Source of the DNA: a gamma proteobacterium endosymbiont of Lamellibrachia anaximandri
GTDB lineage: Bacteria > Pseudomonadota > Gammaproteobacteria > Chromatiales > Chromatiaceae
NCBI GenBank assembly: GCA_016756855.1
Contig: JAESPD010000025.1
Location: 1-51,393, forward strand
Direction: 5' to 3'
Length of the DNA stretch: 51,393 nt
A program made the position numbers and the translations under genes. The notes beneath the pieces are model-generated. The model was not told the DNA's origin and made no database searches. It saw only the letters and a program-made list of their open reading frames with translations. Below are positions 3,213 through 39,040 of this stretch, one piece after another (position 1 is the stretch's first letter; each line of letters opens with the position of its first letter).

Positions 3213-3593
3213 ATGGAAACTGTCAGAAAACTCCCTCTGCTCATATTGACTGCCTGTCTGGTATCAGTCACAGGCTGTGCTACCTCTATGAGTGCCCCAT
3301 TGGCCAAGGCAGAGACCGTGCAGAAGGATGTTGCTACTTATTCGACCAGCAATCCCCTTGAATCGGCCATTCTCTCTGAAATTCCAACCATGAACCCCGG
3401 AGAAAGAGGTGCAGTGGGGTCGGTCATGTTCGTTGCAGGCAAGCTATACAGCGCAGCAAGTGGCAGGCGCTGCCGGTCTGTTACGATAACCGGGAACCCA
3501 TCCCCAGGGGTCACCAGAGGACGAGTGGCTTGTAATGACGGACACAATTGGTTTTTCTCCGGAGATGTCTTCTTAACGGGTTCCATAAAGTGA
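3213..3593 (+). CDS. Small outer-membrane lipoprotein, capsule-linked
   Basis: A 126-residue protein with a lipoprotein signal: METVRKLPLLI, a hydrophobic stretch, then the lipobox VTGC, giving an N-terminal cysteine at about residue 22. The ATG at 3213 is chosen because it gives this signal; a GTG 21 bp upstream is possible. The mature part ends in a compact region with YSAASGRRCR and a second cysteine (VACNDG), a pattern seen in small surface lipoproteins of unknown role. It sits directly before kpsD and overlaps nothing else credible, so it may help the export machinery. Function not known. Confidence 0.75.
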   Translation: METVRKLPLLILTACLVSVTGCATSMSAPLAKAETVQKDVATYSTSNPLESAILSEIPTMNPGERGAVGSVMFVAGKLYSAASGRRCRSVTITGNPSPGVTRGRVACNDGHNWFFSGDVFLTGSIK

Positions 3594-3622
3594 CTGATAT
3601 TAAACAATTATATGGAGTTCGG

Positions 3623-5242
3623 ATGAGAATGGATAGGGTGAAAAGGCATTTCATCACTCTGCTTTTTCTCGTTATGCTTTACAGTTTGGCATCGCCACTC
3701 CACGCCGCAGAGGTCGTTTTACCCAGCCCTCCAGTTGCCGTTCAGCAAGTGGATCCGATCGAACCGTTCGGCGCCAAGCTGTTTAACGGAAACTTCCTCA
3801 AGGCGCGGGGTGACGGACTTAACCCCAACTATATCCTGGCTCCGGGAGACAAGGTGGCCGTTGCTGTGTGGGGGGCAGTAACCATAAAAGATATTTATAC
3901 CATCGATAGCCAGGGTAATATTTTCATGCCAGAGGTAGGGCCCCTGAAGCTCGCAGGGGTGAAAAATGCCGACCTGACAAGTACGGTCAGAGCGCATATC
4001 AAGACGGTCTACACCAGTAATTTTGATGTCTACACCAATCTTGCCACTGCACAGCCGGTAGCCGTCTTTGTGACAGGCATGGTCAACAATCCAGGCCGTT
4101 ACGCCGGTCTGCCGTCTGACAGCATCCTCTATTTTCTTGATCTGGCGGGCGGTATCGATCCCAAACTGGGCAGTTACCGGAAAATTGAGATTATCCGCGC
4201 CGGAAAACCCATTAATACGACCGACCTCTACGATTTTATCCTTAAGGGGAAGATCGCCTCGCCTCAGCTGCAGGAGAATGACACTATTCTGGTTACACAG
4301 CGAGGCGCAGTCGTCCAGCTTGAAGGCAATGTGGCCCGCAGTGCACTGATTGAGATGGAATCAGCGAGTTCATCGGGTGGCGAAATCCTCAAGGTGATCC
4401 CCAAAGCAGCGCAGGCCACTGAGGTCACCATCATCGGCATGCGCAATGGTCTACCAATCAAGCAGACTATGCCACTCATGACCTTTCTTGATTACCCTCT
4501 ACGTGATGGTGATACGGTAACACTCAGGGACGACGGGCGCGCCAATACCATACTGATCAATATCCAGGGTGAATTTAACGGACCGGCCACGTTGTCGGTA
4601 AAACGTGGCTCCCGTCTGATGGATGTGCTCAACCACATTCCGGTCGATCCTGGATTGGCGAATACGGAGGCGATTCATATACGCCGGGTTTCGGTGGCCG
4701 TGGCGCAGAAGGATGCTATCAGCGACGCTCTGTTCCGCTTGGAGCGTAGCTCAATGCTGGCGTTATCCGGCTCCCAGGGTGAAGTGGGGATCCGTGTCCA
4801 GGAGGCTGAGTTGATGGCCAAGTTTGCCGAGCGGGCCCGCCTGATCGATCCGCTGGGAAGAGTGGTGACCTCGCAGGATGGGGTTCAACAGAACATTCTG
4901 CTGGAACCAGAAGATACCCTCATTATCCCCACCAATACACAGCTTGTTCGTACGGTCGGTGAGGTGATGATGATGCATGCCGTCACTCATCGTGAAGGCT
5001 GGACAGCAGGACAGTATATCCAGAAAGCCGGTGGTTACTCAGACCGGGCTGATACAGAAAAAGTCATCATTCACCACCCCAATGCAGAGGTTGAGGTAAC
5101 TGACCCACAGGCCATCATTAAGCCGGGTGATGAGATTATTGTACCGCCGAAGGTCGATTCCAAGACAAGACAGTTTGCCTTGGACTTGATGGATGTCATC
5201 TACAAGATTGCCATTTCGGCGAAAGTTGCCTTCACGTTATGA
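3623..5242 (+). CDS. kpsD: Capsule polysaccharide export protein KpsD
   Basis: Periplasmic/outer-membrane channel of ABC-transporter-dependent (group 2) capsule export. The 539-residue protein closely parallels E. coli KpsD (about 558): a cleavable signal peptide ending near SPLHA (residue 28) without lipobox, FGAKLFNG, then the polysaccharide export domain NPNYILAPGDKVAVAVWGA, and several ligand-binding repeats (QPVAVFVTGMVNNPGRYAG, the GEV and GD repeats), ending IYKIAISAKVAFTL. I chose ATG 3623, preceded by GGAG at the right distance, over an in-frame start 75 bp upstream. kpsM follows after 15 bp. Confidence 0.95.
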   Translation: MRMDRVKRHFITLLFLVMLYSLASPLHAAEVVLPSPPVAVQQVDPIEPFGAKLFNGNFLKARGDGLNPNYILAPGDKVAVAVWGAVTIKDIYTIDSQGNIFMPEVGPLKLAGVKNADLTSTVRAHIKTVYTSNFDVYTNLATAQPVAVFVTGMVNNPGRYAGLPSDSILYFLDLAGGIDPKLGSYRKIEIIRAGKPINTTDLYDFILKGKIASPQLQENDTILVTQRGAVVQLEGNVARSALIEMESASSSGGEILKVIPKAAQATEVTIIGMRNGLPIKQTMPLMTFLDYPLRDGDTVTLRDDGRANTILINIQGEFNGPATLSVKRGSRLMDVLNHIPVDPGLANTEAIHIRRVSVAVAQKDAISDALFRLERSSMLALSGSQGEVGIRVQEAELMAKFAERARLIDPLGRVVTSQDGVQQNILLEPEDTLIIPTNTQLVRTVGEVMMMHAVTHREGWTAGQYIQKAGGYSDRADTEKVIIHHPNAEVEVTDPQAIIKPGDEIIVPPKVDSKTRQFALDLMDVIYKIAISAKVAFTL

Positions 5243-5257
5243 GAAAGAAGAGAACTT

Positions 5258-6040
5258 GTGTCCCGTTCTCCCTTTGAGATCCAGAAAGCCGTTGTCTTCG
5301 CGCTCTTTGTTCGCGAGCTGAAAACGCGCTTTGGTAAGTATCGGCTTGGCTATGCCTGGGCATTATTGGAGCCCATGGCTCACGTCATTATTCTCTCCGC
5401 TATCTGGAGCGCCATGGGGCGTAGCGAATTTTCCGGAATTCCAGTGCCTCTGTTCCTTGCAACGGGTATCGTCCCTTATCTCTTTTTTCAAAGAACAACC
5501 GCGAATTGCATGAATGCAATTGAGTCCAATCGTGGGCTGTTTAACTATCGGCAGGTACGCCCGATTGATCCGGTAATCTCACGGATTATTCTGGAATCTA
5601 TGATCTATTTTGTAAGCTATCTTATGCTGCTTTTCGTTGCAGGATGGTTCCTCGATTATGACATTGGGGTTCATAATCTCCTCGGCCTGATTTTCATCAA
5701 TGCGTTGCTTTATCTACTGACATTCGGTGTTGGGTTGACCTTTTCGGTCTATGGAACGCTCTATCCAGAGATGATGAAGCTGGTGCCCATATTAATCTTC
5801 CGGCCTATGTATTTTATGTCGGGAATCCTCTTTCCACTTATAGTTATCCCGACCGAATATCATCACTGGCTGATGTGGAATCCGTTACTCCACATAGTTG
5901 AACTGAATCACCTGTTCTTTTTCCGCGGCTTTGAGTCGGGGGATGTGAGCCTGTTATTCGTTTTTCTCTTTGCCTTGGCGAGTACCACCTTTGGTCTGCT
6001 CAGCTACCGGGCCAACTGGGTGAGGATGGTGGCTACATGA
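5258..6040 (+). CDS. kpsM: Capsule ABC transporter permease KpsM
   Basis: Inner-membrane subunit of the capsule exporter, ABC-2 family. It has 260 residues with about six hydrophobic segments, and the family's cytoplasmic amphipathic start FVRELKTRFGKYRLGYAWALLEP. It starts at GTG 5258 behind a purine-rich AAGAAGAG. Its end overlaps the kpsT start by 4 bp (ATGA), so the pair is translationally coupled. It would export the lipid-linked polysaccharide with KpsT supplying energy. Confidence 0.95.
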   Translation: MSRSPFEIQKAVVFALFVRELKTRFGKYRLGYAWALLEPMAHVIILSAIWSAMGRSEFSGIPVPLFLATGIVPYLFFQRTTANCMNAIESNRGLFNYRQVRPIDPVISRIILESMIYFVSYLMLLFVAGWFLDYDIGVHNLLGLIFINALLYLLTFGVGLTFSVYGTLYPEMMKLVPILIFRPMYFMSGILFPLIVIPTEYHHWLMWNPLLHIVELNHLFFFRGFESGDVSLLFVFLFALASTTFGLLSYRANWVRMVAT

Positions 6041-6702
6041 TAAATTTGGAAAATGTCACCAAATTTTATCCTACACCAAAGGGGCGAAAATACATCCTGC
6101 GTGATGTGAACATTGAATTTCCGCCGAAGTGCAATATTGCTATTTTAGGCCGCAACGGTATGGGCAAGTCCACGTTGCTTCGGCTTCTGGGTGGGATCGA
6201 CTACCCCAACCGCGGCCACATTCGGAGTGAAGGAAGAATATCCTGGCCCATGGGGCTGTCAGGCGGGGTGCAGGGCAGCATGTCAGGTCGTGATAATGCC
6301 CGTTTCGTCTGCCGTATCTACGGTGACAGTGAAGATGAGGTCGAACGAAAAATCGAATATATCCATGAATTCACAGAACTGGGTGACTACTTTGATATGC
6401 CCGTGAAAACCTATTCAAACGGTATGCGGGCAAGGCTCTCTTTTGCCACCAGTATGGCGTTCGATTTTGATATCTACCTGATGGACGAAATAACAGCCGT
6501 GGGTGACCAACGGTTTAAACAGAAGAGTCGCGCGGCATTGCAGGAGAAGAAGGACAAGGCAAACATCATCAAGGTCTCCCATAACATGCAGGAGTTGATA
6601 CGTGACTGTGATGTCGGGATCTATCTCGAAAAGGGTCAGATGCTTCTCTATGAAGATATTGAAGAGGCCGTGGCCATCTATCAAAGGGAACAAGCAGCGT
6701 AG
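6037..6702 (+). CDS. kpsT: Capsule ABC transporter ATP-binding protein KpsT
   Basis: Nucleotide-binding subunit partnering KpsM, 221 residues. Walker A is GRNGMGKST (38-46), the signature is the KpsT-style YSNGM (126-130) in place of LSGGQ, Walker B is IYLMDE (146-151), and the switch histidine is in SHNM (182). The family's short length, without the C-terminal carbohydrate-binding domain of Wzt, fits an exporter that recognises the conserved lipid terminus rather than the glycan. kpsE begins 2 bp downstream. Confidence 0.95.
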   Translation: MINLENVTKFYPTPKGRKYILRDVNIEFPPKCNIAILGRNGMGKSTLLRLLGGIDYPNRGHIRSEGRISWPMGLSGGVQGSMSGRDNARFVCRIYGDSEDEVERKIEYIHEFTELGDYFDMPVKTYSNGMRARLSFATSMAFDFDIYLMDEITAVGDQRFKQKSRAALQEKKDKANIIKVSHNMQELIRDCDVGIYLEKGQMLLYEDIEEAVAIYQREQAA

Positions 6703-6704
6703 TT

Positions 6705-7805
6705 ATGGCCAAGAGCATTTTAATCAAACTGGATCGTAGCGCCAGCCTGCTGACTTTGGTAATCATCCCCTTTGCATTGCTTGTGCTCTATTACGGCCTT
6801 GTTGCCTCTGATCGGTATACCAGTGAGGCTATCTTTACCATCAAGGAGAATGGCAATAGTTCAAGCAGTCTCGATATCGGTCTGCTGGGAATCGGTAATC
6901 CCTCCGGTCTTGAAGATGAGCGCATCATGGAGGAGTACCTGATTTCCGATGATATGTTGGCCTTTCTCGATAAAGAACTCGGTCACAGGGCGCACTATCA
7001 GAAAAGCAGCGCTGACTGGTTCTCCGCTCTGCCCGTCGATGCAACGCGTGAAGAGTATCTGGAGTATTACCGTGACCATATCGATGTCTACTTTGACGAA
7101 TTATCGGGACTGTTGTTTGTCGAGGTGCAGGCATTTGAGCGCGATTTTGCCAAGCGCCTGCTTGAAACCGTGCTGCAACATGCTGAGGGGGTAGTGAACG
7201 AGATCAGTCACCGCCTTGCCATGGCTCAGTACGAGTTTGTGGAGCAGCAGTTGGTGAAGACGCAGGACTCTCTCAAGCTTTCCAAGCAGCGTCTGTTGGA
7301 GTTTCAGAATCGATACCAGATCTTCAGCCCGGAGCAGCAGGGTCAGTCCCTCACTGCCATCATGGACATTCTGGAGGGTGAACTCAGTCAGGAGAAGGCC
7401 AAACTAAAACAGCTTCTTGGATTTCAAAAGAGTAACTCCCCACAAGTGATTGCCAGCAAAGAACGCATTCGGGCGCTCACAGAGCAGATAATCGATGAAA
7501 AACGTCGCTTGATCGGTGAAGGGGACGAAGAGTTGAATGATCTGATGGTGAAATTTACCAACCTTCAGCTCGATCTCGAATTTACCAAAGATGCCTACGC
7601 CTCCACTCTGGCAGCCCTTGAACAGTCAAGGGCAGAGGCATCAAAGAAGATGAAGCACCTGGTTGTCATCAGTAAACCCTCTCTGGCCGATGAGGCAAAG
7701 TATCCCGAGAGAGTCTATATCCTGGTTACTGCACTCATCGTATTGCTGATGCTGTTTGGCATAGTCAGAATGACGATTACCACAATCAGGGAACATCAGG
7801 ACTAA
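6705..7805 (+). CDS. kpsE: Capsule export inner-membrane protein KpsE
   Basis: Polysaccharide co-polymerase (PCP-3) that bridges the KpsMT transporter and KpsD. The 366-residue protein has one membrane segment near residues 15-33, a long periplasmic part rich in predicted coiled coil (for example LVKTQDSLKLSKQRLLEFQNR), and a second membrane segment near 335-354 preceded by KPSLADEAKYPER, the usual PCP proline-rich stretch. It is packed between kpsT and the GT4 gene with 2 bp gaps, as part of one operon. Confidence 0.95.
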   Translation: MAKSILIKLDRSASLLTLVIIPFALLVLYYGLVASDRYTSEAIFTIKENGNSSSSLDIGLLGIGNPSGLEDERIMEEYLISDDMLAFLDKELGHRAHYQKSSADWFSALPVDATREEYLEYYRDHIDVYFDELSGLLFVEVQAFERDFAKRLLETVLQHAEGVVNEISHRLAMAQYEFVEQQLVKTQDSLKLSKQRLLEFQNRYQIFSPEQQGQSLTAIMDILEGELSQEKAKLKQLLGFQKSNSPQVIASKERIRALTEQIIDEKRRLIGEGDEELNDLMVKFTNLQLDLEFTKDAYASTLAALEQSRAEASKKMKHLVVISKPSLADEAKYPERVYILVTALIVLLMLFGIVRMTITTIREHQD

Positions 7806-11414: not shown

Positions 11415-13562
11415 ATGAAATCGCAATCGGCTATCAAACAAGATGACGCATATATGAACATAGTGGTAACTACCGGCTGCCCGCACAGCGGTTGGGAAAC
11501 TGCATTTCCAGCCTTGCGGCAGCTAGGACTTGAAGAGGGTGGAGACACCTTTGCTGATTGGCACGACAAGCTGTTCCAGGAAACAGACTTAGCCGATCCG
11601 GTTCAGCTCAGCCAGTCTATCCAACCCAGTCTTGATCTGGCAGAAAAGGCGGCTGCGATGTTCTCTGAGGGAACTGATACTCCGATCTTGTGGGCGGATA
11701 GCCGAAGCCTGTGGCTGCTTGATTTCTGGGCCACGACTTTTCCGCAAGCGAGGTTTCTGCTCTTCTACATCCGTGCAGAGAGTGCTTTGGCCCACGCACT
11801 TCGGCAAGGCGTGGACCCTGAGCGGTTCATGGAGGCCTGGCATGCGTCGAACCAGGTGTTGATACGCTTTCAGCGCCGCAATCGCCGCCGTAGCCTATTG
11901 CTCGACGCAGAGACAACAGCCCAGCAGCCGGAAGCATTGGCCGATGCCTGTCAACGCATCGGGCTAGTGCTGCGACAAGAGAACCCGTCGCCTACCCTAA
12001 CAACCACAGCGCCTGCGTTGGAGCGGCTACTGGCCAGCCAGTTCCTGCGTGAACAGTCAGCTCTTCAGGCCCTGCAAATGGAGCTGGAGGCGGGCGCTCA
12101 ACCGCTGGGCGAAACAACAGCCCATGAACCCCCTCAACCGCTGGAGGTCTACCACAGCTATCAGCAAGGGCAAGTGCGAGTTGAGCAGCTGACACAGGCA
12201 AGGGATGAACAGGCGAAGCTAGCCAGAGAGCGCCAAGACCAGATACAGCAACTGACCAAGGTGCGGGATGAACAGGCAAAGTTGGCTACTGAATATCAGG
12301 CACAGCTTACCCAGTCCAAACAGGCACAAGAGAAGCTGGAGTCGGCCAATGAAGAGGCCGGGAAGGAAAATGAACTGCTCTTGTTACAACTGCACCAAGT
12401 ACAGGAAGAACTCGAAGCAGTTTTCCTGCAAAAGCAGCAGATCGACCAAGCCCAGAAGGAACAAGACACTAAGCTCAAGCAGCTCCAGCGGGAACTGGAT
12501 CAAACCAGGAAGGATTTTCAGGTAGAGGAGAAGATACGGAAAGGGTTGGCCGGTGAACAGCAGAAGCTGCAAACGCAGATTGAGTCTCTGACAAAGGGAC
12601 GAGACGAACAGGCAAAGCTGACTACTGAACGTCAGACACAACTCACCCAGGCCAAGCAGGCACAAGAGAAGCTAGAGTCGGCCAATGAAGAAGCCGGCCA
12701 GGAAAACGAGCTGCTCCTGTTACAGCTACACCAAGTACAGGAAGAGCTCGAAGCAGTTTTCCTGCAAAAGCAGCAGATCGACCAATCCCAGAAGGAACAA
12801 GACGCCAAGTTAAAGCAGCTCCAGCGGGAACTGGATCAAACCAGGAAGGATTTTCAGGTAGAGGAGAAGATACGGAAAGGGTTGGCCGGTGAACAGCAGA
12901 AGCTGCAAACGCAGATTGAGTCTCTGACAAAGGGACGAGACGAACAGGCAAAGCTGGCTACTGAGCGTCAGGGACAGCTCACCCAGGCCAAGCAGTCACA
13001 AGAGAAGCTGGAGTCGGCCAAAAAGGAGACCGAACAGGAAAATGAACTGCTGCTGCTGCAACTGCACCAGGTACAGGAAGAGCTGGAACACTACTTCATT
13101 AAATACCAGGATCTAGTGCGGGAGTTAGAAGAACAAACCAAAGCTGAATCCAGCAGTTCCGAAGAACAGCGGGAGTCAGAGAAGTCCAAACCGGCCAAGA
13201 CCTCGAAGATTACTACACCCATCCGCGCCCTTGCTAAGCCATTCAGGCTCACGAATAAGGCGAGAAAAAGAGAGAAGGTGCTTGTCAATCTGCTGAAAGA
13301 TTCAGGCCTTTTCGATGAGTCTTGGTACCTTGCCGAGTATCCAGATGTGGCCGAAGCGGGCATCGACCCTATTCAACACTATCTGCGTTACGGGGCATCA
13401 GAAGGACGCAATCCATCACCTAAATTTGATACCACGTTCTATTTGACTACCAACCCCGACATCGCCCAAGCAGAAATCAACCCACTGATACATTATCTCC
13501 GGTATGGAAAAGAGGAGGGCCGGTTGCCATCACTCCAGGGTATCAGCGCATGGACGCCATAA
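11415..13562 (+). CDS. Degenerate sulfotransferase-like domain fused to repeat coiled coil
   Basis: About 715 residues. Residues 14-190 resemble a sulfotransferase: VVTTGCPHSGWE stands where the phosphosulfate loop (PxSGT) would be, and FLLFYIRAESALAHALRQG looks like the 3'-phosphate region, but key loop residues differ, so activity is doubtful. Then comes a long coiled coil rich in E, Q, K and L containing 112-residue repeats, and finally two copies of a short repeat seen at the ends of many glycan enzymes (LFDESWYLAEYPDVAEAGIDP...HYLRYGASEGRNP, then FYLTTNPDIAQAEINP...). I start at ATG 11415; ATG 11454 is also possible. Longer starts read through the miniature element. Confidence 0.75.
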   Translation: MKSQSAIKQDDAYMNIVVTTGCPHSGWETAFPALRQLGLEEGGDTFADWHDKLFQETDLADPVQLSQSIQPSLDLAEKAAAMFSEGTDTPILWADSRSLWLLDFWATTFPQARFLLFYIRAESALAHALRQGVDPERFMEAWHASNQVLIRFQRRNRRRSLLLDAETTAQQPEALADACQRIGLVLRQENPSPTLTTTAPALERLLASQFLREQSALQALQMELEAGAQPLGETTAHEPPQPLEVYHSYQQGQVRVEQLTQARDEQAKLARERQDQIQQLTKVRDEQAKLATEYQAQLTQSKQAQEKLESANEEAGKENELLLLQLHQVQEELEAVFLQKQQIDQAQKEQDTKLKQLQRELDQTRKDFQVEEKIRKGLAGEQQKLQTQIESLTKGRDEQAKLTTERQTQLTQAKQAQEKLESANEEAGQENELLLLQLHQVQEELEAVFLQKQQIDQSQKEQDAKLKQLQRELDQTRKDFQVEEKIRKGLAGEQQKLQTQIESLTKGRDEQAKLATERQGQLTQAKQSQEKLESAKKETEQENELLLLQLHQVQEELEHYFIKYQDLVRELEEQTKAESSSSEEQRESEKSKPAKTSKITTPIRALAKPFRLTNKARKREKVLVNLLKDSGLFDESWYLAEYPDVAEAGIDPIQHYLRYGASEGRNPSPKFDTTFYLTTNPDIAQAEINPLIHYLRYGKEEGRLPSLQGISAWTP
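12321..13090 (+). repeat. 336 bp tandem repeat (112 residues, 16 heptads)
   Basis: CAGGCACAAGAGAAGCT at 12321 recurs at 12657 and, with small changes, at 12993, giving an exact 336 bp period. Two full units (12321-12656, 12657-12992) are nearly identical in DNA over most of their length. The third is partial and more diverged, ending near 13090. 336 bp is 112 codons, exactly 16 heptads, so each unit adds length without shifting the coiled-coil register. Near-identity at DNA level implies recent duplication or gene conversion. Confidence 0.9.
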
Positions 13563-13590: not shown

Positions 13591-14877
13591 TTGAATAAAG
13601 CCAATACTGATCAGACGCAGGCAAGTCAGCAGATAAGCGTATCTGTAGTCATGCCATCGCTCAATCAAGCCACCTTTATAGAGCGATCAATCCGCAGTGT
13701 ATTGCCGCAATCAAAAATACCACTGGAGCTGATAGTCATGGACGGTGGTTCCACCGACGGCACACAGGCTATCCTGTCTCGCCTGGCGCAAGAAGCCAAT
13801 GGTCGGCTGCGCTGGAAATCGGAAGCGGACCGGGGTCCTGCCCATGCCGTAAACAAGGCCATGGCGATGGCCCAGGGCGACGTAATTGGATGGCTGAATG
13901 CTGATGATATCTACATGCCGGGTGCGGTGGAACGGGTAGTCCAAGCGTTGGATGTACACCCTGAATGGTTGATGGTCTATGGTCATGCCCAACACATCGA
14001 TGAGTGCGATAAGGTTATCGGCGATTATCCGACTCGCCTGCCAGATACCCCGCTTGAGGCGTTTGCTGATGGTTGTTTTATTTGCCAGCCTACCGTATTT
14101 CTACGTAAGGATGCACTGAACAGGTATGGGCGATTGACCGAGAATTTGGAGACAGCCTTCGACTTTGAATGGTGGTTGCGAATCTTTAGCCAGCAGCGTG
14201 AAGCCATAGGATTCGTCAATGCTCTACAAGCCGGTTCACGTCTGCATAGCGCCTGCATAACCCTAAATCAGCGGGAAACAGTCATCCGCGAAGGCATGCA
14301 AGTGTTGGCGCAATACCTGGGTACCAGTCCCTTGCATTGGTTCAAGACCTATACCGATGAAATATTGGCGGACTACCCACATGGGCGGCAGATCAACAAC
14401 ATCAAGACATACTTAACAAAATTTGCACGTAGTATTTCAGGCTATCTTTCAGAGGCCGACAAGCAGGAATTACGTAACTACCAACAGACAGATGCGCGCA
14501 TCAATTTGGCTATTCCAGATGCCTGCCTGGAGGTATATCCTGATGGTTGGTTGCCCTCGCGCTCCACGCTACGTGTGCGGAGTCGAAAACGCCGCTGGCG
14601 GCGGGTAGAATTGCGGGGACGGCATGTTTCGAAGGCCGATGGTTCGTTACAGTTGAAGATCTGCTCACCCGATGGAAAGGAAAGTCTTCACAAGATTGAA
14701 AAAAGGGGATCGTTTGTGCTACAGATCGACCTGCTCACTCCAGCAGAGCGTCCCGCCTTCTGGACCTTTGCGATAGAGGCAGATGGCTGTTTTATTCCAC
14801 GGGAACACGATCCTGCCTCAGATGACACTCGCGAACTTGCCTGTCAGATCGACGCAATCCGGTTGCATGCAAAGTAG
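13591..14877 (+). CDS. GT2 family glycosyltransferase
   Basis: A 428-residue GT-A enzyme. The N-terminus has VVMPSLNQATFIERSIRSV, then MDGGSTDGT, and WLNADDIY supplies the DXD-type metal site; FDFEWWLRI is the usual acceptor-side motif. The last 120 or so residues (LEVYPDGWLPSRSTLRVR onward) form a separate beta-rich domain I do not recognise, perhaps carbohydrate-binding. Only a TTG start (13591) gives the full N-terminus; no strong ribosome site is visible. It lies between the two coiled-coil proteins in the same direction. Sugar specificity unknown. Confidence 0.85.
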   Translation: MNKANTDQTQASQQISVSVVMPSLNQATFIERSIRSVLPQSKIPLELIVMDGGSTDGTQAILSRLAQEANGRLRWKSEADRGPAHAVNKAMAMAQGDVIGWLNADDIYMPGAVERVVQALDVHPEWLMVYGHAQHIDECDKVIGDYPTRLPDTPLEAFADGCFICQPTVFLRKDALNRYGRLTENLETAFDFEWWLRIFSQQREAIGFVNALQAGSRLHSACITLNQRETVIREGMQVLAQYLGTSPLHWFKTYTDEILADYPHGRQINNIKTYLTKFARSISGYLSEADKQELRNYQQTDARINLAIPDACLEVYPDGWLPSRSTLRVRSRKRRWRRVELRGRHVSKADGSLQLKICSPDGKESLHKIEKRGSFVLQIDLLTPAERPAFWTFAIEADGCFIPREHDPASDDTRELACQIDAIRLHAK

Positions 14878-15060: not shown

Positions 15061-17151
15061 ATGCACAAAGAACAGCATAATTCTCAGATATGGCCCACGA
15101 CAGATATGGACACCATCGTGCACCTGGGCGCAGGCCGTTGCAGCGAACTGGATGACTACCTCGCCGCGAAGCCTGCCAGCTTACTGCTGGTGGAGGCCGA
15201 CCCGCAGCTTGCCAAGACGCTCCAAGTGCGTACAACTGATTACCCGCAGGTTGAGGTCATCAACTGTGCTGTGGCTGCCCAGCCTGGTCCTGTGACTTTT
15301 CGCCGGTATAACCTCCCGGATGCCAGTAGCATACACCCCGCTTCCATTGGTCTCCTGGATCTATTTCCCGGCCTCAAGACGGTGCAAGAGCTTCAAATCG
15401 AAGCGTTGGACCCAGCCCCGCTGCTACAGCCCCTGCGGCTGCAAGTGGAACAACGCAACCGGCTGGTTATCGACCTGCCCGGTGAGGAACTCCCCGTACT
15501 TCAGGCGCTCCAGCAAGCCGATCAGCTACATTATTTTGAGCAGTTACAACTCCACTGTGGACGCGAATTCTTGTATGAAGACAGCGAACCCGCAGCCATT
15601 GTCATCCAATGGCTTCAGGATCAAGGTTTTGATCTATTGATGGAGGACGACAGCCAGGATCCTGATCGACCCCGCTGGGATCTCAAACGCAATAAATTGC
15701 AACTTGACCATCGCGATCTGAAAAAACAGTTGGTTCAGAAAACCAAAATTCATGATGAGCAAAAAGCGCTGCTCAATGAACGCCAAGTCCAGGTAGGCGA
15801 GTTAACCAATGCCCTGAATGAGCAGACGAGGTTTGCGGCTGAAAATAAAGTCCAGCTAGAAAAGGCCAACCAGGCCAAGGGCGAGCAGGTCAAGTTGCTA
15901 AACGAGCGCCAGACCCAGATAGAACAGCTCACCCAAGCGAGGGATGAGCAGGCGAAGCTTGCGGCTGAACACAAAACCCAGTTGGAACAGGCCAACCAGG
16001 CCAAGGCCGAGCAGGTCAAGCTGGCAAACGAGCGCCAGGCCCAGATAGAGCAGCTCGCCAAGGCGAGGGATGAGCAGGTCAAGCTGGAAAATGAGCGCCA
16101 GACTCAGATAGAACAGCTCACCAAGGTGAGGGATGAGCAGGCGAAGATTGCAGCTGAACACAAAACTCTGCTGGAACAGGCCAACCAGGCCAAGGCCGAG
16201 CAAGTCAAGTTGGCAAATGAGCGCCAGAACCAGATAGAACAGCTCACCCAAGCGAGGGATGAGCAGGCGAAGCTTGCGGCTGAACACAAAACTCAGTTGG
16301 AACAGTCCAACCAGGCCAAGGCCGCGCAGGTCAAGTTGGCAAATGAGCGCCAGAACCAGATAGAGCAGCTCACCCAAGCGAGGGATGAACAGGCAAAGCT
16401 TGCGGCTGAACACAAAACTCAGTTGGAACAGGCCAACCAGGCCAAAGCCGCACAGGACAAGTTGGCAAATGAGTGCCAGAACCAGATAGAACAACTCACC
16501 AAAGCGAGGGATGAACAGGCAAAGCTTTCGGCTGAACACAAAACTCAGTTGGAACAGGCCAACCAGGCCAAAGCCGCTCAGGGCAAGTTGGCAAATGAGC
16601 GCCAGAACCAGATAGAACAACTCACCAAAGCGAGGGATGAACAGGCGAAGCTTGCGGGTGAACACAAAACTCTGTTGGAACAGGCCAACAAGATCAAAGC
16701 TGATATGGAGAAGCTGGCTAGCGACCAAAACTTTCAGTTGGAGGTACTTTCCAAAGAGAAGTCAGCTCTCGAATTGCAGATAGAGTCGTTTAATAAATCA
16801 CTTTCACAACAACAAACAAGAGAAGTTCAATTACAACAGGAGATCACTGAGACACGCCAGGCATTAAATCTCAGTGTTAAGTTGCAGACGCTACGAGAAA
16901 ATGATCTGAAAGATTTGCAAATCCGATATCAAGAGGCTGCTGAAACGCAAGAAAATCAGCACCAATTACTCGTCAAGCTGTCAGAGCGTCTTAGCGCTGC
17001 TTCTTCCTATCTGCATCAGCTAAATACGAAAAAATCCAATTTTGTAATGAAAAAAATTAAAAATAAAAAGAAGAAGCTGAAGGATAAGAAAAAAAGGAGC
17101 AAGCGCAAAAAGCTTAACCATATAGTGGATATTTCAATAGACAAGGCTTGA
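15061..17151 (+). CDS. FkbM-like methyltransferase domain fused to repeat coiled coil
   Basis: A 696-residue protein from ATG 15061; a longer frame from 14965 would include intergenic repeat. Residues 16-200 look like a class I methyltransferase: VHLGAGRCSELDDY (motif I) and LLLVEADPQLAKTL (motif II), then VIDLPGEELPVLQAL, resembling the D-x2-G-x-E segment of FkbM enzymes. A coiled coil of some 400 residues follows, built from 42-residue repeats (RDEQAKLAAEHKTQLEQAN). The C-terminus is an extremely basic tail with many KKK runs, suited to contact membrane or nucleic acid. The architecture recalls WbdD, a methyltransferase with a coiled-coil ruler, but no kinase domain is visible. Confidence 0.78.
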   Translation: MHKEQHNSQIWPTTDMDTIVHLGAGRCSELDDYLAAKPASLLLVEADPQLAKTLQVRTTDYPQVEVINCAVAAQPGPVTFRRYNLPDASSIHPASIGLLDLFPGLKTVQELQIEALDPAPLLQPLRLQVEQRNRLVIDLPGEELPVLQALQQADQLHYFEQLQLHCGREFLYEDSEPAAIVIQWLQDQGFDLLMEDDSQDPDRPRWDLKRNKLQLDHRDLKKQLVQKTKIHDEQKALLNERQVQVGELTNALNEQTRFAAENKVQLEKANQAKGEQVKLLNERQTQIEQLTQARDEQAKLAAEHKTQLEQANQAKAEQVKLANERQAQIEQLAKARDEQVKLENERQTQIEQLTKVRDEQAKIAAEHKTLLEQANQAKAEQVKLANERQNQIEQLTQARDEQAKLAAEHKTQLEQSNQAKAAQVKLANERQNQIEQLTQARDEQAKLAAEHKTQLEQANQAKAAQDKLANECQNQIEQLTKARDEQAKLSAEHKTQLEQANQAKAAQGKLANERQNQIEQLTKARDEQAKLAGEHKTLLEQANKIKADMEKLASDQNFQLEVLSKEKSALELQIESFNKSLSQQQTREVQLQQEITETRQALNLSVKLQTLRENDLKDLQIRYQEAAETQENQHQLLVKLSERLSAASSYLHQLNTKKSNFVMKKIKNKKKKLKDKKKRSKRKKLNHIVDISIDKA
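15901..16719 (+). repeat. 126 bp tandem repeats with one 63 bp half unit
   Basis: The unit starting AA(C/T)GAGCGCCAG begins at 15901, 16027, 16090, 16216, 16342, 16468 and 16594 (the 16468 copy reads GAGTGCCAG). Spacings are 126 bp except 16027 to 16090, which is 63 bp. 126 bp is 42 residues (six heptads) and 63 bp is exactly half, so every change preserves the heptad register. Units are highly similar at DNA level. The antisense strand is open throughout, which creates a spurious reverse reading frame. Confidence 0.92.
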
Positions 17152-17153
17152 AA

Positions 17154-18101
17154 ATGAGAAAGGAAAACAAGCCCGCTGTAAACCCTGCTGACATCCTGGT
17201 TTCAACAATAGATGATGCATTGGCTTTGCTAAGAAGCTCGTCATACGGTGAAAAAGCACTGCACGCATACCAAGATGATCCCGGGAGCCTGCTCGAACAG
17301 TGCATAGTATTGTGTGAAAAAAATAAATCTAAAAAACTTGAGCCGATTCGTACAATACACCATTTTGCTTGTACGGGTGGCACCCTGCTTTGTAAGTGCT
17401 TGGCTGTAATGCCGAATACACAGCTATTAAGTGAGGTTGACCCCCTTAGTGTCTTGGGAACTAATGATAACGGTACAATATTTGCTCCCACAGACATGAT
17501 TACACTATTACGTCAAAGTACATGTGGGGGTGATAAAGAACTCATCTTAAAAATGTTTTTGAATAATGTAGAAATAATCTATAAATCCGCTCTGCATGCG
17601 GGGAAGAGGTTGGTTTTTCGTGATCATTCTCACAGCCATTATTGTGTTGGTGGATCTATTCCAGATCGCCAACATTTAAGACAAATCCTAAAGCTGAAAT
17701 TCCCTGTTTTATCAGTGGTTACTGTTCGTGATCCGATGGATAGTTATTTGTCACTGCTGAATAACGATTGGGTTCATTTCACACCCGAAACATTCGATGA
17801 ATACTGCAGGCGATATCTGATTTTTATTGAGAGTTATAATGATGTTGCGATAGTTCGATATGAAGATTTTGTTAATTATCCGAATAAGATAATGAAAGAT
17901 ATGTGCAGAATCCTGGATTTACCATACGCAGATGACTTTGCTGATTTGTTTGACGTAATTAAACTGAGTGGAGATAGTGGAAGAAGATCAGGTACCATCG
18001 AACCGAGAGAGCGACGGCCTGTTGGATGTGAACTTGAAGAAGAGGCGAGTGCTTCACCGCACTATATGAGATTACGTGAGATGTTAGGGTATTACGGATG
18101 A
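17154..18101 (+). CDS. Sulfotransferase family protein
   Basis: A 315-residue protein with HHFACTGGTLLCKCLA near residue 65, matching the P-loop-like 5'-phosphosulfate motif of PAPS-dependent sulfotransferases (xGGTxL), and LSVVTVRDPMDSYLSLLNN near 190, matching the 3'-phosphate motif (RDPxxSYxS). YEDFVNYP also fits. It would transfer sulfate from PAPS to the glycan in the cytoplasm. ATG 17154 lies 2 bp after the previous stop, and the gene overlaps the next by 4 bp. Base composition is clearly more AT-rich than upstream. Confidence 0.85.
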   Translation: MRKENKPAVNPADILVSTIDDALALLRSSSYGEKALHAYQDDPGSLLEQCIVLCEKNKSKKLEPIRTIHHFACTGGTLLCKCLAVMPNTQLLSEVDPLSVLGTNDNGTIFAPTDMITLLRQSTCGGDKELILKMFLNNVEIIYKSALHAGKRLVFRDHSHSHYCVGGSIPDRQHLRQILKLKFPVLSVVTVRDPMDSYLSLLNNDWVHFTPETFDEYCRRYLIFIESYNDVAIVRYEDFVNYPNKIMKDMCRILDLPYADDFADLFDVIKLSGDSGRRSGTIEPRERRPVGCELEEEASASPHYMRLREMLGYYG

Positions 18102-23009: not shown

Positions 23010-23234
23010 GTGAAAAGTACAATCACATCACGCGGCCAGACGGTTGTTCCTGCAGGTATCCGCCATAGGTTCCATTTAGGCGCTTCTGATTGTCTTGAAT
23101 GGATTGTTGAGGGGAAAACAATAAGGGTTGTCCCTCTACCCCAAAACGGTATTGACGCCTTTCGTGGAAGAGGTCGTGGAGGCGCGACAGAGCGTCTGTT
23201 GGCTGAACGAAAAAAAGAGAGGGAGGGGGAGTGA
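23010..23234 (+). CDS. AbrB/MazE-type antitoxin
   Basis: A 74-residue protein beginning KSTITSRGQTVVPAGIRHRF, the swapped-hairpin AbrB/SpoVT DNA-binding domain used by VapB/MazE antitoxins; the basic, disordered C-terminus (GRGRGGATERLLAERKK) would wrap the toxin. I prefer GTG 23010, with AGAGG 7 bp upstream, to GTG 23001. Its stop overlaps the toxin start by 4 bp. Confidence 0.85.
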   Translation: MKSTITSRGQTVVPAGIRHRFHLGASDCLEWIVEGKTIRVVPLPQNGIDAFRGRGRGGATERLLAERKKEREGE

Positions 23235-23626
23235 GGCGCTATCTGTTAGATACCTCTGCACTTTTAACACTCCGTGATGATGAGCACGGTGCTGACCAAG
23301 TTGCAGAGGTTTTGTTGCAAGCGGAAGAGCATCAAGCAAGAGTTTATGGCTCATTCATGACACTGATGGAGGTTTTCTATCGGGTCTGGAAGGATGAGGG
23401 TGAGACAGAAGGAAGAGTTGCTTATGAGCAGTGTAAATCGCTCCCAATCCAGTGGGTTCATGAAAACTCTGATCTCTTGGAGCAGGCGGCTAAAATCAAG
23501 GCAACTCATCCACTGTCACTCGCAGATGCCTGGATTGCCGCAACTGCAATTTTGGAGAATGGGATATTAATGCATAAAGATCCTGAGTTTGAAGTTGTAG
23601 ATGTAGAACAGCATATCTTGCCGTAA
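23231..23626 (+). CDS. PIN-domain ribonuclease toxin (VapC-like)
   Basis: A 131-residue PIN-domain protein. YLLDTSALL gives the first catalytic aspartate (D7), SFMTLMEVFYRV the conserved glutamate, and LSLADAWIAATA the further acidic residues. Such toxins cleave RNA and are neutralised by the upstream antitoxin. It starts at GTG 23231, overlapping the antitoxin stop. The following 23627-23813 region shows no gene. Confidence 0.87.
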   Translation: MRRYLLDTSALLTLRDDEHGADQVAEVLLQAEEHQARVYGSFMTLMEVFYRVWKDEGETEGRVAYEQCKSLPIQWVHENSDLLEQAAKIKATHPLSLADAWIAATAILENGILMHKDPEFEVVDVEQHILP

Positions 23627-28706: not shown

Positions 28707-28952
28707 ATGCAAGTCAGTGTCCGAGAAACGAGAGAACAACTCAGCCGATTGTTGAAAGCCGTCGAACATGGAGAGCAGGTGGAGATAACACGGCGGGGTC
28801 GGGTAGTGGCGCGGCTTGCTCCCCCAGAGCCACGTTCAGATAGTTCACGGGTGGCGCGTGCATCTGTTCGGGCGAAATTACGTGATACCTTGCCCCCATC
28901 CAAGACTGCATCAACAGAACTGATTCGAGAACTCAGAGAAGAGCGTGGCTGA
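28707..28952 (+). CDS. Phd/YefM-type antitoxin
   Basis: An 81-residue protein starting MQVSVRETREQLSRLLKAVE with ITRRGRVVARL, the standard Phd/YefM DNA-binding fold. The C-terminal part (STELIRELREERG) would bind the toxin. It overlaps the toxin gene by 8 bp. The 8 bp palindrome GTGTACAC lies at 28669-28676, about 30 bp upstream, and may be part of its operator. Confidence 0.85.
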   Translation: MQVSVRETREQLSRLLKAVEHGEQVEITRRGRVVARLAPPEPRSDSSRVARASVRAKLRDTLPPSKTASTELIRELREERG

Positions 28953-29379
28953 TCCTCGTCTCTATTTTGACACCAGTGCGTTGTTGCCGCTATACCGTCA
29001 GGAGCAATTAACGGCGCAAGCAGAGCAGATCCAGAATGAGGTGACGCCGGTGATCAGTGCCTTAACAGAGGTCGAAGTGGCTTCCGCTTTAGCTCGTTGG
29101 GTGCGAATGGGAGAGCTAACCGGCGAGCAGGCAGAATTGCTGGAGACAACCTTTTCTGAAGATATTCGCCTCGACGTGTTTGAACGCGTTGCTCTGGAAG
29201 ATCGTCACTACTGGCAAGCACGGCATTGGCTTCTAGGGCGGAAAACGGCGCTGCGTACCCTGGATGCACTCCACTTGGCATGCGCGGTAGAATATAATTT
29301 AACGATCGTTACTGCTGATAAAGTGCTTGCAGATGCTGCTGCGTTTGTCGGTGGGCGTGTGCGCTTCTTGAGGAGTTAA
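28945..29379 (+). CDS. PIN-domain toxin (VapC-like)
   Basis: A 144-residue PIN-domain protein: LYFDTSALLPLY with the first aspartate, ALTEVEVASAL with glutamates, RTLDALHLACAVE and IVTADKVLADAA with the remaining acidic residues. GTG start at 28945 inside the antitoxin gene. It would be an RNA-cleaving toxin held by the Phd-type partner. Confidence 0.87.
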   Translation: MADPRLYFDTSALLPLYRQEQLTAQAEQIQNEVTPVISALTEVEVASALARWVRMGELTGEQAELLETTFSEDIRLDVFERVALEDRHYWQARHWLLGRKTALRTLDALHLACAVEYNLTIVTADKVLADAAAFVGGRVRFLRS

Positions 29380-34939: not shown

Positions 34940-36268
34940 TCACGCTACATCGGAATGCTCAATACCCTTCTGTACTGAATCAATATAGGCGGCAAGGAGG
35001 GCATGAGCACCGGAAGGAGCGACTGGCATGTCTGTTTCTGTTGAATGAGTAGTCTCATCTGATGCCTGTGTGAGCTCAACCAGATGTTGGTAATCAATAC
35101 CCGAGTGACTTTTTAAGCCTGGAGTTTTCCGATAGAAATTTCCGTTTATCTGGTTTTTTTCGATGAGGTGGTTTCTGAATCTTTGATATAACTTTCTGTC
35201 CACTGTGCCTTGGGTACTCCAGAACTCTTTCATTTCCCCCTGAAACGTAAGTCCCGGCATATTGTAGATGGCATGGCCCGATGTTTTAACGGGTGTGCCA
35301 TGAAATATTGACGATAGGCCTACCGTGCTATTTAACAGGACTGTGCCTTTGGCGTGATCCAGCAGCGTGGGTAGATGCATATCGTGGACATAGATAACCC
35401 GCGCTTTGCAGCCATACTTGTCGGCAAGTTTATTGATAATTCGGGTGTAGTCTGAGTAACCCCTGTCCAGTGGATGGTGTTTGATCACCAGAAGGGTGTC
35501 TGTCGGTGCGTGTTTCGAAAAGGAGGAGATCACTCTTCTGATAAAGGCGGCCGCAGAGGGAACCGATGACCAGATTTTTATCTGTGCATCGTTATGGACC
35601 TGAAGGGGGACGAGGAAGAATCTCTTTGAATAGTGTGTTGTCAGTTGTTGTTGAACGCCACGTTCGCAAAAGCGGTAGTAGTATTTTCTGATTCCCCCAC
35701 GTACCCATATTACCGCCTCGTTGTACCATTTGAATGGGCGATGGTGGATGTAGTCCGGAAAGTGACTCTGGCCAAGCCATCCCATAAAAAAATAGACGGC
35801 CGCATACCAGCCTGCATGGGAAAATGAGTAGGGGACATGTGTCGGTTGTCTCGTGGCCTCTTCCTGGATATCTTTATATGCCTCTGGAGTTCGCGGAATG
35901 GATGAGCGTCCATTCACGCCATCTTTTTCAAAGGTGACGTAGTGAGGCCGGAGATAGCCCTCCTCAAAGACAAATACGTCAATAGAGAGCAAGCGTGCAG
36001 CTTCATGGGCTCTTTTGTGGTACGAGCGTTCATCACCGAACAGGTAGATGGTGGTGATTTTGCAATCTTCCAGAAACTGCTTCAGAAACACCGGCCACTG
36101 TTCAACAGTGCCGGTGTAGTCCACACTATTCTCACCACTGAAGAAAAAGCGGTCACCCGCATTTAGATTTATCTTGTAAACAGTATGCCCGGATTCTTCC
36201 AGGTCCATGGAGAGGCGCTTGAAAAAAGGCCCCACTGGCCCCTGAAGCAGGAGAATATTACTTGCCAT
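34940..36268 (-). CDS. kpsS: Capsule Kdo transferase KpsS
   Basis: Cytoplasmic enzyme adding the first beta-Kdo to the phosphatidylglycerol anchor of group 2 capsules. 442 residues, in the family range. NILLLQGPVGPFFKRLS begins the protein, with FEEGYLRPHYVTFEKDGVN, VIKHHPLDRGYSDY and GTVLLNSTVGLSSIFHGTPV, all typical KpsS motifs. It overlaps kpsC by 11 bp, so they are co-translated. The anchor is shared by KpsMT-type systems and fits the exporter genes at the left of the window. Confidence 0.94.
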   Translation of the reverse strand: MASNILLLQGPVGPFFKRLSMDLEESGHTVYKINLNAGDRFFFSGENSVDYTGTVEQWPVFLKQFLEDCKITTIYLFGDERSYHKRAHEAARLLSIDVFVFEEGYLRPHYVTFEKDGVNGRSSIPRTPEAYKDIQEEATRQPTHVPYSFSHAGWYAAVYFFMGWLGQSHFPDYIHHRPFKWYNEAVIWVRGGIRKYYYRFCERGVQQQLTTHYSKRFFLVPLQVHNDAQIKIWSSVPSAAAFIRRVISSFSKHAPTDTLLVIKHHPLDRGYSDYTRIINKLADKYGCKARVIYVHDMHLPTLLDHAKGTVLLNSTVGLSSIFHGTPVKTSGHAIYNMPGLTFQGEMKEFWSTQGTVDRKLYQRFRNHLIEKNQINGNFYRKTPGLKSHSGIDYQHLVELTQASDETTHSTETDMPVAPSGAHALLAAYIDSVQKGIEHSDVA

Positions 36269-38402: not shown

Positions 38403-39040
38403 CAGTGTGCGACGGAGAGAGACTCCTCGGATTTTCTGGTTAGCTGCAGAAGGATTCCGCGTTCGACCAGGATTTCAAGCAGCTGCTCTACGCATACTTC
38501 CAGGGTGCTGTTCTCAGTATCGATGCTGATTTCAGGGTTTTCCGGTACCTCGTAGGGAGAGGAAATGCCTGTGAAATCGGAGATTTCGCCAGCACGGGCC
38601 CGTTTGTAGAGCCCTTTTACATCGCGTCTCTCGCACTCCTCGATGGAGCAGTGGCAGTAGACCTCGATGAAATCATCATCAGCAAACAGTTTTCTGACAT
38701 TTTTGCGGTCATCCGTGAAGGGCGAGATAAAGGCCGTAAGGGCAATGACACCGGCTTCAACGAACAGTTTGGCCATCTCGCCGATTCTGCGAATATTCTC
38801 CTTCCTGTCTTCAGCGCTGAATCCAAGGTCACCGCAGAGACCATGGCGGACATTGTCACCGTCAAAGACATAAGTGCGCCCTCCCCGCTGATGGAGTTGT
38901 TCCTCCAGCGCATGGGCCAGAGTCGATTTTCCCGAGCCTGAGAGGCCGGTAAACCAGAGGACGACGGATTTGTGCTGATTGAGCTTTTCCCTGCGTTCGC
39001 GGGTGACGGTGGCGCAGTGCCAGACGATATTGTTGTCCAT
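38402..39040 (-). CDS. cysC: Adenylylsulfate kinase CysC
   Basis: Phosphorylates APS to PAPS, the sulfate donor of sulfotransferases. A 212-residue protein with Walker [10 protein letters not shown] (32-40), [17 protein letters not shown] and [25 protein letters not shown], all diagnostic. It is first gene of the kpsC-kpsS operon, sharing a base with kpsC. In most bacteria cysC sits with cysDN; here its placement suggests PAPS supply for capsule sulfation rather than for assimilation. cysDN are not in the window. Confidence 0.95.

Follow-up and report, generated by a model that had tools for sequence, protein, structure and literature searches.

The proteins that finish O-antigen chains in Escherichia coli O9a and O8 (WbdD) and in Klebsiella pneumoniae (O7 ORF6, O12 WbbB and O4 ORF7) carry an enzyme domain at the distal end of a coiled coil and organise their complexes, and further enzymes join on the C-terminal side by recruitment or by fusion; for WbdD, it is the polymerase that the C-terminal region brings in (PMC3482155, PMC11231755). 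WbdD of O8 is a methyltransferase only, and in WbdD systems the Wzt_C domain couples capping to export (PMC3482155). For capsules exported by ABC transporters, a 2025 review describes chain-length control as unresolved and perhaps requiring a yet-to-be identified factor (PMC12220298). Here we describe a coiled-coil protein with a methyltransferase-fold head, encoded in a capsule locus of a gammaproteobacterial endosymbiont of Lamellibrachia anaximandri (contig JAESPD010000025.1 of assembly GCA_016756855.1; the whole 51,393-nucleotide stretch analysed is referred to as the window). Its gene is paired with a second coiled-coil gene upstream, and its C-terminal tail varies in step with the gene that follows, a combination that may reflect a two-protein scaffold for capsule synthesis.

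Architecture and conservation of the coil pair

The open frame at 15061-17151 (+) encodes a protein of 696 amino acids (aa) and is confirmed as a real gene; its ATG at 15061 and MHKE N-terminus are conserved in the three congeners that carry it, and a search of close genomes found it absent from two others, G001 and G003 (genomes and loci are given by our G and L numbers). The coil starts directly after the head, and a profile search finds no kinase domain between them. The periodicity of coil hydrophobicity is strongest at 3.5 residues, where its power is 19.9 compared with 0.1 for a period of 3.6, and the tandem 126-bp units encode 42 aa, each composed of two 21-aa halves. Tandem Repeats Finder reports periods of 126, 189, 315 and 336 bp in the two coil genes, each a multiple of 21 bp. 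The last 45 residues include 19 lysines and arginines and three aspartates and glutamates, and the stop of the frame overlaps the next gene, for the sulfotransferase-like ST317, by 4 bp. An earlier sequence-only reading had described a methyltransferase head on a long repeat coil with a very basic end in a KpsMT-type locus, and all four elements are borne out here. It had also presented the lack of a kinase domain as a departure from WbdD; the lack is confirmed, and the domain of O9a WbdD is indeed absent, but this is no departure because the O8 form lacks it as well.

Counting the own genome each time, searches recover the head from 8 of 92 close genomes (one of the eight, G066, is a distant FkbM match only and was not used), from 15 of the 210 in the order and from 3 of the 369 in the class. 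Eight loci of a public genome set also carry it, five of them in genomes already found. This gives 20 distinct loci, which we term type I, including those of Candidatus Accumulibacter, a metagenome-assembled genome named Desulfuromonas, and Rhabdochromatium marinum; a search of viral contigs found no relative of the head. In 19 of the 20 loci, those of Candidatus Accumulibacter and Desulfuromonas among them, the partner coil gene lies upstream at a distance of one or two genes; it is recognised by its head profile in 16 and by its tail or QLHQVQ motif only in three (G023 and CSSed11, both at contig edges, and G571). A family 2 glycosyltransferase gene lies between the two in five loci (own genus and G239), and the pair is maintained while most other neighbours differ between loci. 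Five further proteins (G224, G030, G117, G039 and G120), which we call type II, have a diverged head with a glycine-rich loop; the partner is present in four of these genomes, and the C-terminus, visible in four of the five, is always one of the tails A or B described below (the G039 gene runs off its contig). Searching with the partner instead identifies 22 of the 210 order genomes, with a type I mate in 14, a type II mate in four (G117, G030, G039 and G224) and no mate found in four, a count made without a genome-wide search for type II heads.

More distant heads are encoded on plasmids of Alphaproteobacteria (16 of 72,556 records), of which six neighbourhoods were read and five used; the Azospirillum head was set aside as, by eye, a plain FkbM protein lacking a coil. 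Immediately upstream of the gene, Salipiger and Leisingera carry a diverged coil gene resembling the partner, but the partner head profile matches that of Leisingera at E 1e-5 and misses that of Salipiger, and both assignments therefore rest on position, coil and tail. No partner is seen beside the gene in Gemmobacter, Thalassovita or Ensifer.

Tail type and the identity of the next gene

Profiles assign 29 scored proteins to three tail classes: 16 have tail A, as in the window, 11 have tail B (AExQIELIKDLLLR) and two have tail C, a second Rossmann-like domain (LPxLHGWPIS...EFGSGxST). More than 1 kb of downstream sequence is available for 28 of the 29 (G222, with less than 1 kb, was dropped). 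An ST317-type gene is next in all 16 tail-A loci, 15 of them by script and that of Salipiger by annotation and BLAST (L129:10824-11771, a 39.6% match missed by the script), and in none of the 12 tail-B and tail-C loci with enough downstream sequence. Fisher's test on the scripted 15/16 gives 4e-7, with the ST317 profile having been built from six of the scored loci and the tail A and B profiles from six and eight of the scored proteins. A module resembling tetratricopeptide repeats (TPR) is next in five of 10 tail-B loci by script and in none of the 16 tail-A loci; domains fused to it are FkbM in L039, Methyltransf_24 (weak) in L012 and L024, and a sulfotransferase (weak) in L130. The switch is also seen within the symbiont's own genus, where G000 (the window genome) and G005 have tail A with ST317, G002 has tail B with the TPR module and G004 has tail C with neither. 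We read this coupling, from sequence comparison, as probable docking of the next gene's product onto the tail.

The ST317-type seed sequences contain an AC[ST]GGT loop in five of six cases and an R[DH]P..S string in four of six under a strict pattern. Net charge of the last 45 residues ranges from -3 to +16 among tail-A proteins. The TPR-like adaptor has a very basic start and overlaps the end of the tail-B coil genes by 17 bp (L012:16461-18545, L039:16072-17496). Domains of the tail-C type are either fused to the coil or, in similar form, encoded as a short gene of their own (L009:4835-7489, L050:8214-10247 and L015:4212-4970, all on the minus strand); L009 has no Pfam match at E <= 0.01.

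Coil lengths and shared coil words

Coil lengths of the paired proteins covary, with rho of 0.83 (n=19), 0.77 with one representative of the own genus (n=16), 0.66 for type I only (n=14), and 0.80 once two Alphaproteobacteria join the set (n=18; 1 of 20000 permutations). Phylogenetic contrasts give r of 0.60 on raw lengths (89 of 20000 permutations) and 0.46 on log lengths (459 of 20000), with the same sign in 12 of 18. The length tests leave out G023, G032 and CSSed11 (partner incomplete or lacking), G120 and G039 (incomplete), G117, whose type II coil gene is partly N-masked (L097:1-200), and Gemmobacter, Thalassovita and Ensifer, which show no adjacent partner; two boundaries, the head end in G571 and the final motif in the frame-split G158, were assigned manually. 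Coils in the set reach up to 581 residues. Own pairs also share 5-mers at a rate of 0.031, compared with 0.0105 for non-own pairs (0 of 10000 permutations), and the phrase RDEQAKL, noticed earlier as common to both coils, is confirmed in the form RD[EAN]Q[AS]KL with five copies in the protein at 15061 and four in its partner. Together the covariation and the shared words suggest a mixed bundle, as statistical support short of proof. Of the bundle proposed in the sequence-only reading, a link between the two coil proteins is supported, through pairing, lengths and words.

The methyltransferase-fold head

An AlphaFold2 model of the head from nine sequences has a mean predicted local distance difference test (pLDDT) of 86.0 and a predicted TM-score (pTM) of 0.84, and its best Foldseek matches in the Protein Data Bank (PDB) are class I methyltransferases, including KsgA (3.5e-6) and fibrillarin with S-adenosylmethionine (SAM; 5.8e-6), with query TM-scores of just 0.41-0.51 among the 50 best matches listed. 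No Pfam family matches the head above its cut-off. Both FkbM models score below theirs (TIGR01444 26.1 bits against 37.7, PF05050 13.6 against 22.7). At E <= 1, TIGR01444 finds every one of the nine members of our head set A2, the best of them at 1.3e-8. By sequence profiles FkbM is the nearest family, under the curated cut-offs. Where the FkbM family usually has KxDxEG, the window's head reads IDLPGEE.

Among 22 scored heads (17 of type I, one of these from the own genus, and five alphaproteobacterial), G23 is present in 22, E45 in 20, G25 in 19 and D138 in 17. SAM-type residues are kept in most heads, and SAM binding is therefore likely in most members. Type II heads have a full GxGxG in four of five cases, and II_G039 has GxGxxG. 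Three of the 25 aligned heads (type II excluded), those of G571, Thalassovita and Ensifer, have visibly lost motif I. L98 and D200 are found in all 22 scored heads, and L101, P103, G104, D202 and P204 in 21; the alignment thus places the most constant positions largely outside the predicted SAM site. Against a methyl cap, as first envisaged, speak the scores below the FkbM cut-offs, the loss of motif I in some relatives and the lack of a Wzt_C match in the symbiont's genome.

The sulfotransferase-fold partner

In members of the partner family, a sulfotransferase-fold head is followed by a coil with one to three motifs resembling ELLLLQLHQVQEELE and by a basic linker; most also have a tandem FDxxWYLxxYPDV domain. 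The head model has a pLDDT of 74 and the five models disagree, and its 16 best Foldseek matches are all sulfotransferases (tyrosylprotein sulfotransferase 2.2e-6). No sulfotransferase Pfam family matches the head at E <= 1 in seven members. The motifs scored were the 5'-phosphate loop and the R[DN]P...S 3'-phosphate motif of sulfotransferases that use 3'-phosphoadenosine 5'-phosphosulfate (PAPS). Gxxx[ST]GW is kept in 11 of 19 partner heads, including the window's (GCPHSGW), and R[DN]P strings occur in three of 19, none of them, by eye, in the LLFY segment where expected. The motif peptide of the coil is matched in four of 369 class genomes, own included, and the string QLHQVQEELE is found in no paper of the open-licence literature searched. 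The FDxxWY pattern is also present, as a pattern only, on large adjacent proteins that look like glycosyltransferases (L096:12442-15489, L098:11175-14243, L100:9397-11910), and it is possible from this distribution that FDxxWY marks a common docking domain.

The capsule locus

Counterparts of KpsD, KpsM, KpsT, KpsE, KpsS and KpsC are all within the window (Table 1), and we read the locus, from its gene content, as a KpsMTEDCS capsule system of the group 2/3 type with its own PAPS supply. It differs from such systems in the extra paired coil proteins, the sulfotransferase-like genes and ApsK. A paper on siboglinid symbionts mentions KpsS, KpsC and KpsE (PMC6908572).

Table 1. Features of the coil pair and of the surrounding capsule locus (window coordinates).
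Feature	Coordinates	Strand	Basis
KpsD-type outer-membrane export protein	3548-5242	+	export-protein profiles below cut-off; synteny
KpsM permease	5258-6040	+	NF050053 7.6e-52, below its cut-off
ATPase, 221 aa, named KpsT by position	6037-6702	+	ABC ATPase profiles, best Wzt/RfbE 1.9e-40, below cut-off
KpsE-type polysaccharide co-polymerase	6705-7805	+	TIGR01010 2e-92, below its cut-off
Partner: sulfotransferase-fold head, coil and tail; open frame of 767 aa	11259-13562	+	start probably 11415 or 11454, from relatives
Partner head, degenerate sulfotransferase fold	11454-12080	+	AlphaFold2, Foldseek
Partner coil, about 347 residues, 336-bp repeat, three ELLLLQLHQVQEELE motifs	12081-13121	+	repeats, motif
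Partner tail: basic linker and tandem FDxxWYLxxYPDV domain	13161-13562	+	likeness to E. coli group 3 tail
Family 2 glycosyltransferase between the two coil genes	13591-14877	+	PF00535 4.4e-27
Protein with FkbM-like head, coil and basic tail, 696 aa	15061-17151	+	open frame; start kept in congeners
Class I methyltransferase-fold head, residues 16-213	15106-15699	+	AlphaFold2, Foldseek, TIGR01444 below cut-off
Coiled coil, about 395 residues	15706-16890	+	hydrophobic period, repeats
Tandem 126-bp (42-aa) units within coil	about 15818-16700	+	repeat search
Tail A, conserved helical C-terminal segment LRxxDLKDLQxRY...LTERLxxASxYLHQL, about 60 residues	16855-17031	+	conservation; coupled to next gene
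Lysine-rich C-terminus	17032-17148	+	residue counts
ST317, sulfotransferase-like	17148-18101	+	PF13469 5.5e-5, below cut-off
KpsS	34940-36268	-	NF050054 5.3e-123, below its cut-off; PF05159 2.6e-85
KpsC, name inferred	36258-38402	-	two-domain protein, repeated PF05159 matches, adjoins KpsS
ApsK adenylyl-sulfate kinase (PAPS supply), directly behind kpsC	38402-39040	-	PRK03846 2.5e-95, over cut-off

The KpsT-position ATPase is, at its length, too short for a C-terminal glycan-binding domain. Wzt_C (PF14524) has no match in G000 or in the congeners G002, G004 and G005; it is present in 13 of the 21 genomes searched, and the search therefore works. The location of ApsK beside kpsC and kpsS ties PAPS supply to the capsule genes. 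Two short PIN-like frames, recognised by eye, lie between capsule genes at 23231-23626 and 28945-29379 (+). In G001 the corresponding locus is a relict (L101 1951-9612), in which the kpsD frame is kept, kpsE is shortened to 169 aa and the partner coil gene is still open; there is no kpsM or kpsT frame between kpsD and kpsE, and the genome has no FkbM-like coil gene at the thresholds used.

Relationship to known systems

As in the WbdD and Klebsiella terminators, the enzyme domain of the window's protein is carried distally on a coil, but those proteins serve lipopolysaccharide O-antigen export and this one sits in a capsule locus; WbdD is matched with a glycan-sensing Wzt, which has no Wzt_C counterpart here, and no sulfotransferase-fold partner is described for the terminators in the passages of PMC3482155 and PMC11231755 that treat them. 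Nor is WbdD among the 14 PDB sequences found at E <= 10 with head profile A2, its inclusion in the set being assumed.

A closer parallel is found in an E. coli group 3 capsule locus, where a 909-aa protein with a Methyltransf_24 head (6.1e-25) and a long coil, judged by eye, is encoded directly after four export genes (NZ_CP023142.1 816481-819210). Over 124 columns its tail has 44% identity to that of the partner, and the E. coli system uses one protein where the window has two. As hhalign finds no match between this protein and the FkbM-like head profile (probability 0.0), we do not claim homology of the two heads beyond a possible common fold. Of 5426 complete E. coli genomes, 66 have a DNA match to this gene, with coverage of 80% or more in 37. 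In many group 3 clusters the putative methyltransferase genes have been reported to vary in coil length, a variation not expected to be critical (PMC13171606), and a SAM-dependent methyltransferase gene is mentioned in group 3 loci with no function given (PMC10433991); the passages of these two papers on the genes offer no mechanism. A coil-borne methyltransferase in a Kps locus is therefore already known as a gene, and the earlier suggestion that this arrangement would be new for the export class does not hold. A search of open-licence papers, dependent on wording, returned no account of the pair, the sulfotransferase-fold head, the length covariation or the tail code. Overall, the sequence-only reading is partly supported.

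A proposed two-protein scaffold and its alternatives

We propose, with a probability of about 0.55, that the two coil proteins constitute a scaffold with tail-directed recruitment, of which the protein at 15061 would be one half, on the cytoplasmic side of a KpsMTEDCS-type capsule machine. The long coil of this protein would run alongside that of the upstream partner. Going by residue counts and the rise of an alpha helix, both N-terminal heads, one of methyltransferase and one of sulfotransferase fold, would then be separated by tens of nanometres from the C-termini, which may be located at the polymerase or at the membrane. The tail of the protein at 15061 would be a docking module deciding which third enzyme joins, with tail A calling for an ST317-type sulfotransferase. 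Like WbdD, such a scaffold would keep the enzymes that modify and finish the chain at a fixed spacing from the glycosyltransferases, and would in this way shape the chain or complete it. By analogy, this would be the geometry of the WbdD and Klebsiella terminators, doubled, and a role as ruler or terminator is plausible.

Several observations weigh against this proposal. Partner head length, used as a control, is itself correlated with coil length (rho 0.53, p 0.036), and general shrinkage therefore explains part of the covariation, although the partial correlation of coil lengths given partner head length stays at 0.72. Removal of the four most degenerate partners leaves rho at 0.62 (p 0.03, n=12), and some genera are represented more than once among the 18 loci, with G154, G158 and G030 sharing one genus and G221 and G222 another. 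Lengths fail to track within the own genus, where the coil of the methyltransferase-fold protein spans 395-500 residues and that of the partner 320-347, and in G158 the two are 116 and 259. Shared 5-mers are more frequent in own pairs than in others for only 10 of the 16 genomes, and five of the pairs have none in common. G032 has no partner beside the gene or elsewhere in the genome at E <= 1e-5, its place (L016:10805-12227) being occupied, by eye, by a transposase-like frame and short toxin-antitoxin-like frames; conversely, no mate is found for the partner in G001 (the relict locus), G055 and G241 (contig ends) or G195 (20 kb read). The last 45 residues are net positive in only 12 of 16 tail-A proteins, and the tail may simply travel with the next gene as a single inherited unit.

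The explanations considered overlap in the confidence we give them and are not mutually exclusive. There is a real, if lesser, chance that both heads are pseudoenzymes, the pair acting as a pure scaffold or glycan-binding tether and catalysis falling to third enzymes such as ST317 or the TPR-linked transferases: the partner head matches no sulfotransferase Pfam family in the seven members searched and rarely has R[DN]P strings, three lineages have lost methyltransferase motif I, the ST317-type genes keep sulfotransferase motifs better, and ApsK lies beside kpsC. Drift would nonetheless have erased the SAM-type residues that most methyltransferase heads retain, and type II heads keep their glycine-rich loop just as the window's partner head keeps GCPHSGW. 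A WbdD-like terminator and ruler, in which the head methylates the non-reducing end to halt growth and coil length sets chain length, is a more doubtful prospect. It would account for the WbdD order of parts (head, coil, presumed C-terminal recruitment region), in a family whose O8 member is likewise methyltransferase only, for the class I fold with its conserved G23, E45 and G25 and the type II loop, and for repeat periods in multiples of 21 bp, through which repeat number could alter length in register. Motif I, however, is lost in three lineages while L98, L101, P103, G104, D200, D202 and P204 are kept, the head is under the FkbM cut-offs and its profile does not retrieve WbdD among the 14 PDB matches, the own genome and three congeners lack Wzt_C, and the conserved partner is left unexplained.

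It seems unlikely that the pair is simply a complex for decoration within the chain, with the head methylating internal sugars and the coil only raising local concentration with no length measurement; the neighbouring sulfotransferase and pyruvyltransferase genes do imply a decorated chain, but coils of up to 581 residues and their covariation would have no explanation. Least credible is an ordinary FkbM-like methyltransferase with a neutral, expanding repeat, paired by operon inheritance, since the pair persists while most neighbours change, the heptad period is kept in the window and the tail is coupled to the next gene, even though tandem repeats expand easily and length varies freely within the own genus.

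An extended form of the scaffold proposal, which we regard as improbable, is a heteromeric ruler in which the methyltransferase-fold and sulfotransferase-fold coils form a mixed bundle whose shared length would set the capsule chain length, and whose interchangeable tail would select the capping enzyme, here a sulfotransferase fed by ApsK, giving chains that end in sulfate and not methyl. The coil pair is kept across distant proteobacterial lineages with covarying coils, one of its tails varies with the enzyme encoded next, and the other has a domain in common with the coil-methyltransferase of E. coli group 3 capsules. This makes the pair a concrete candidate for the chain-length factor of ABC-transporter-dependent capsules.

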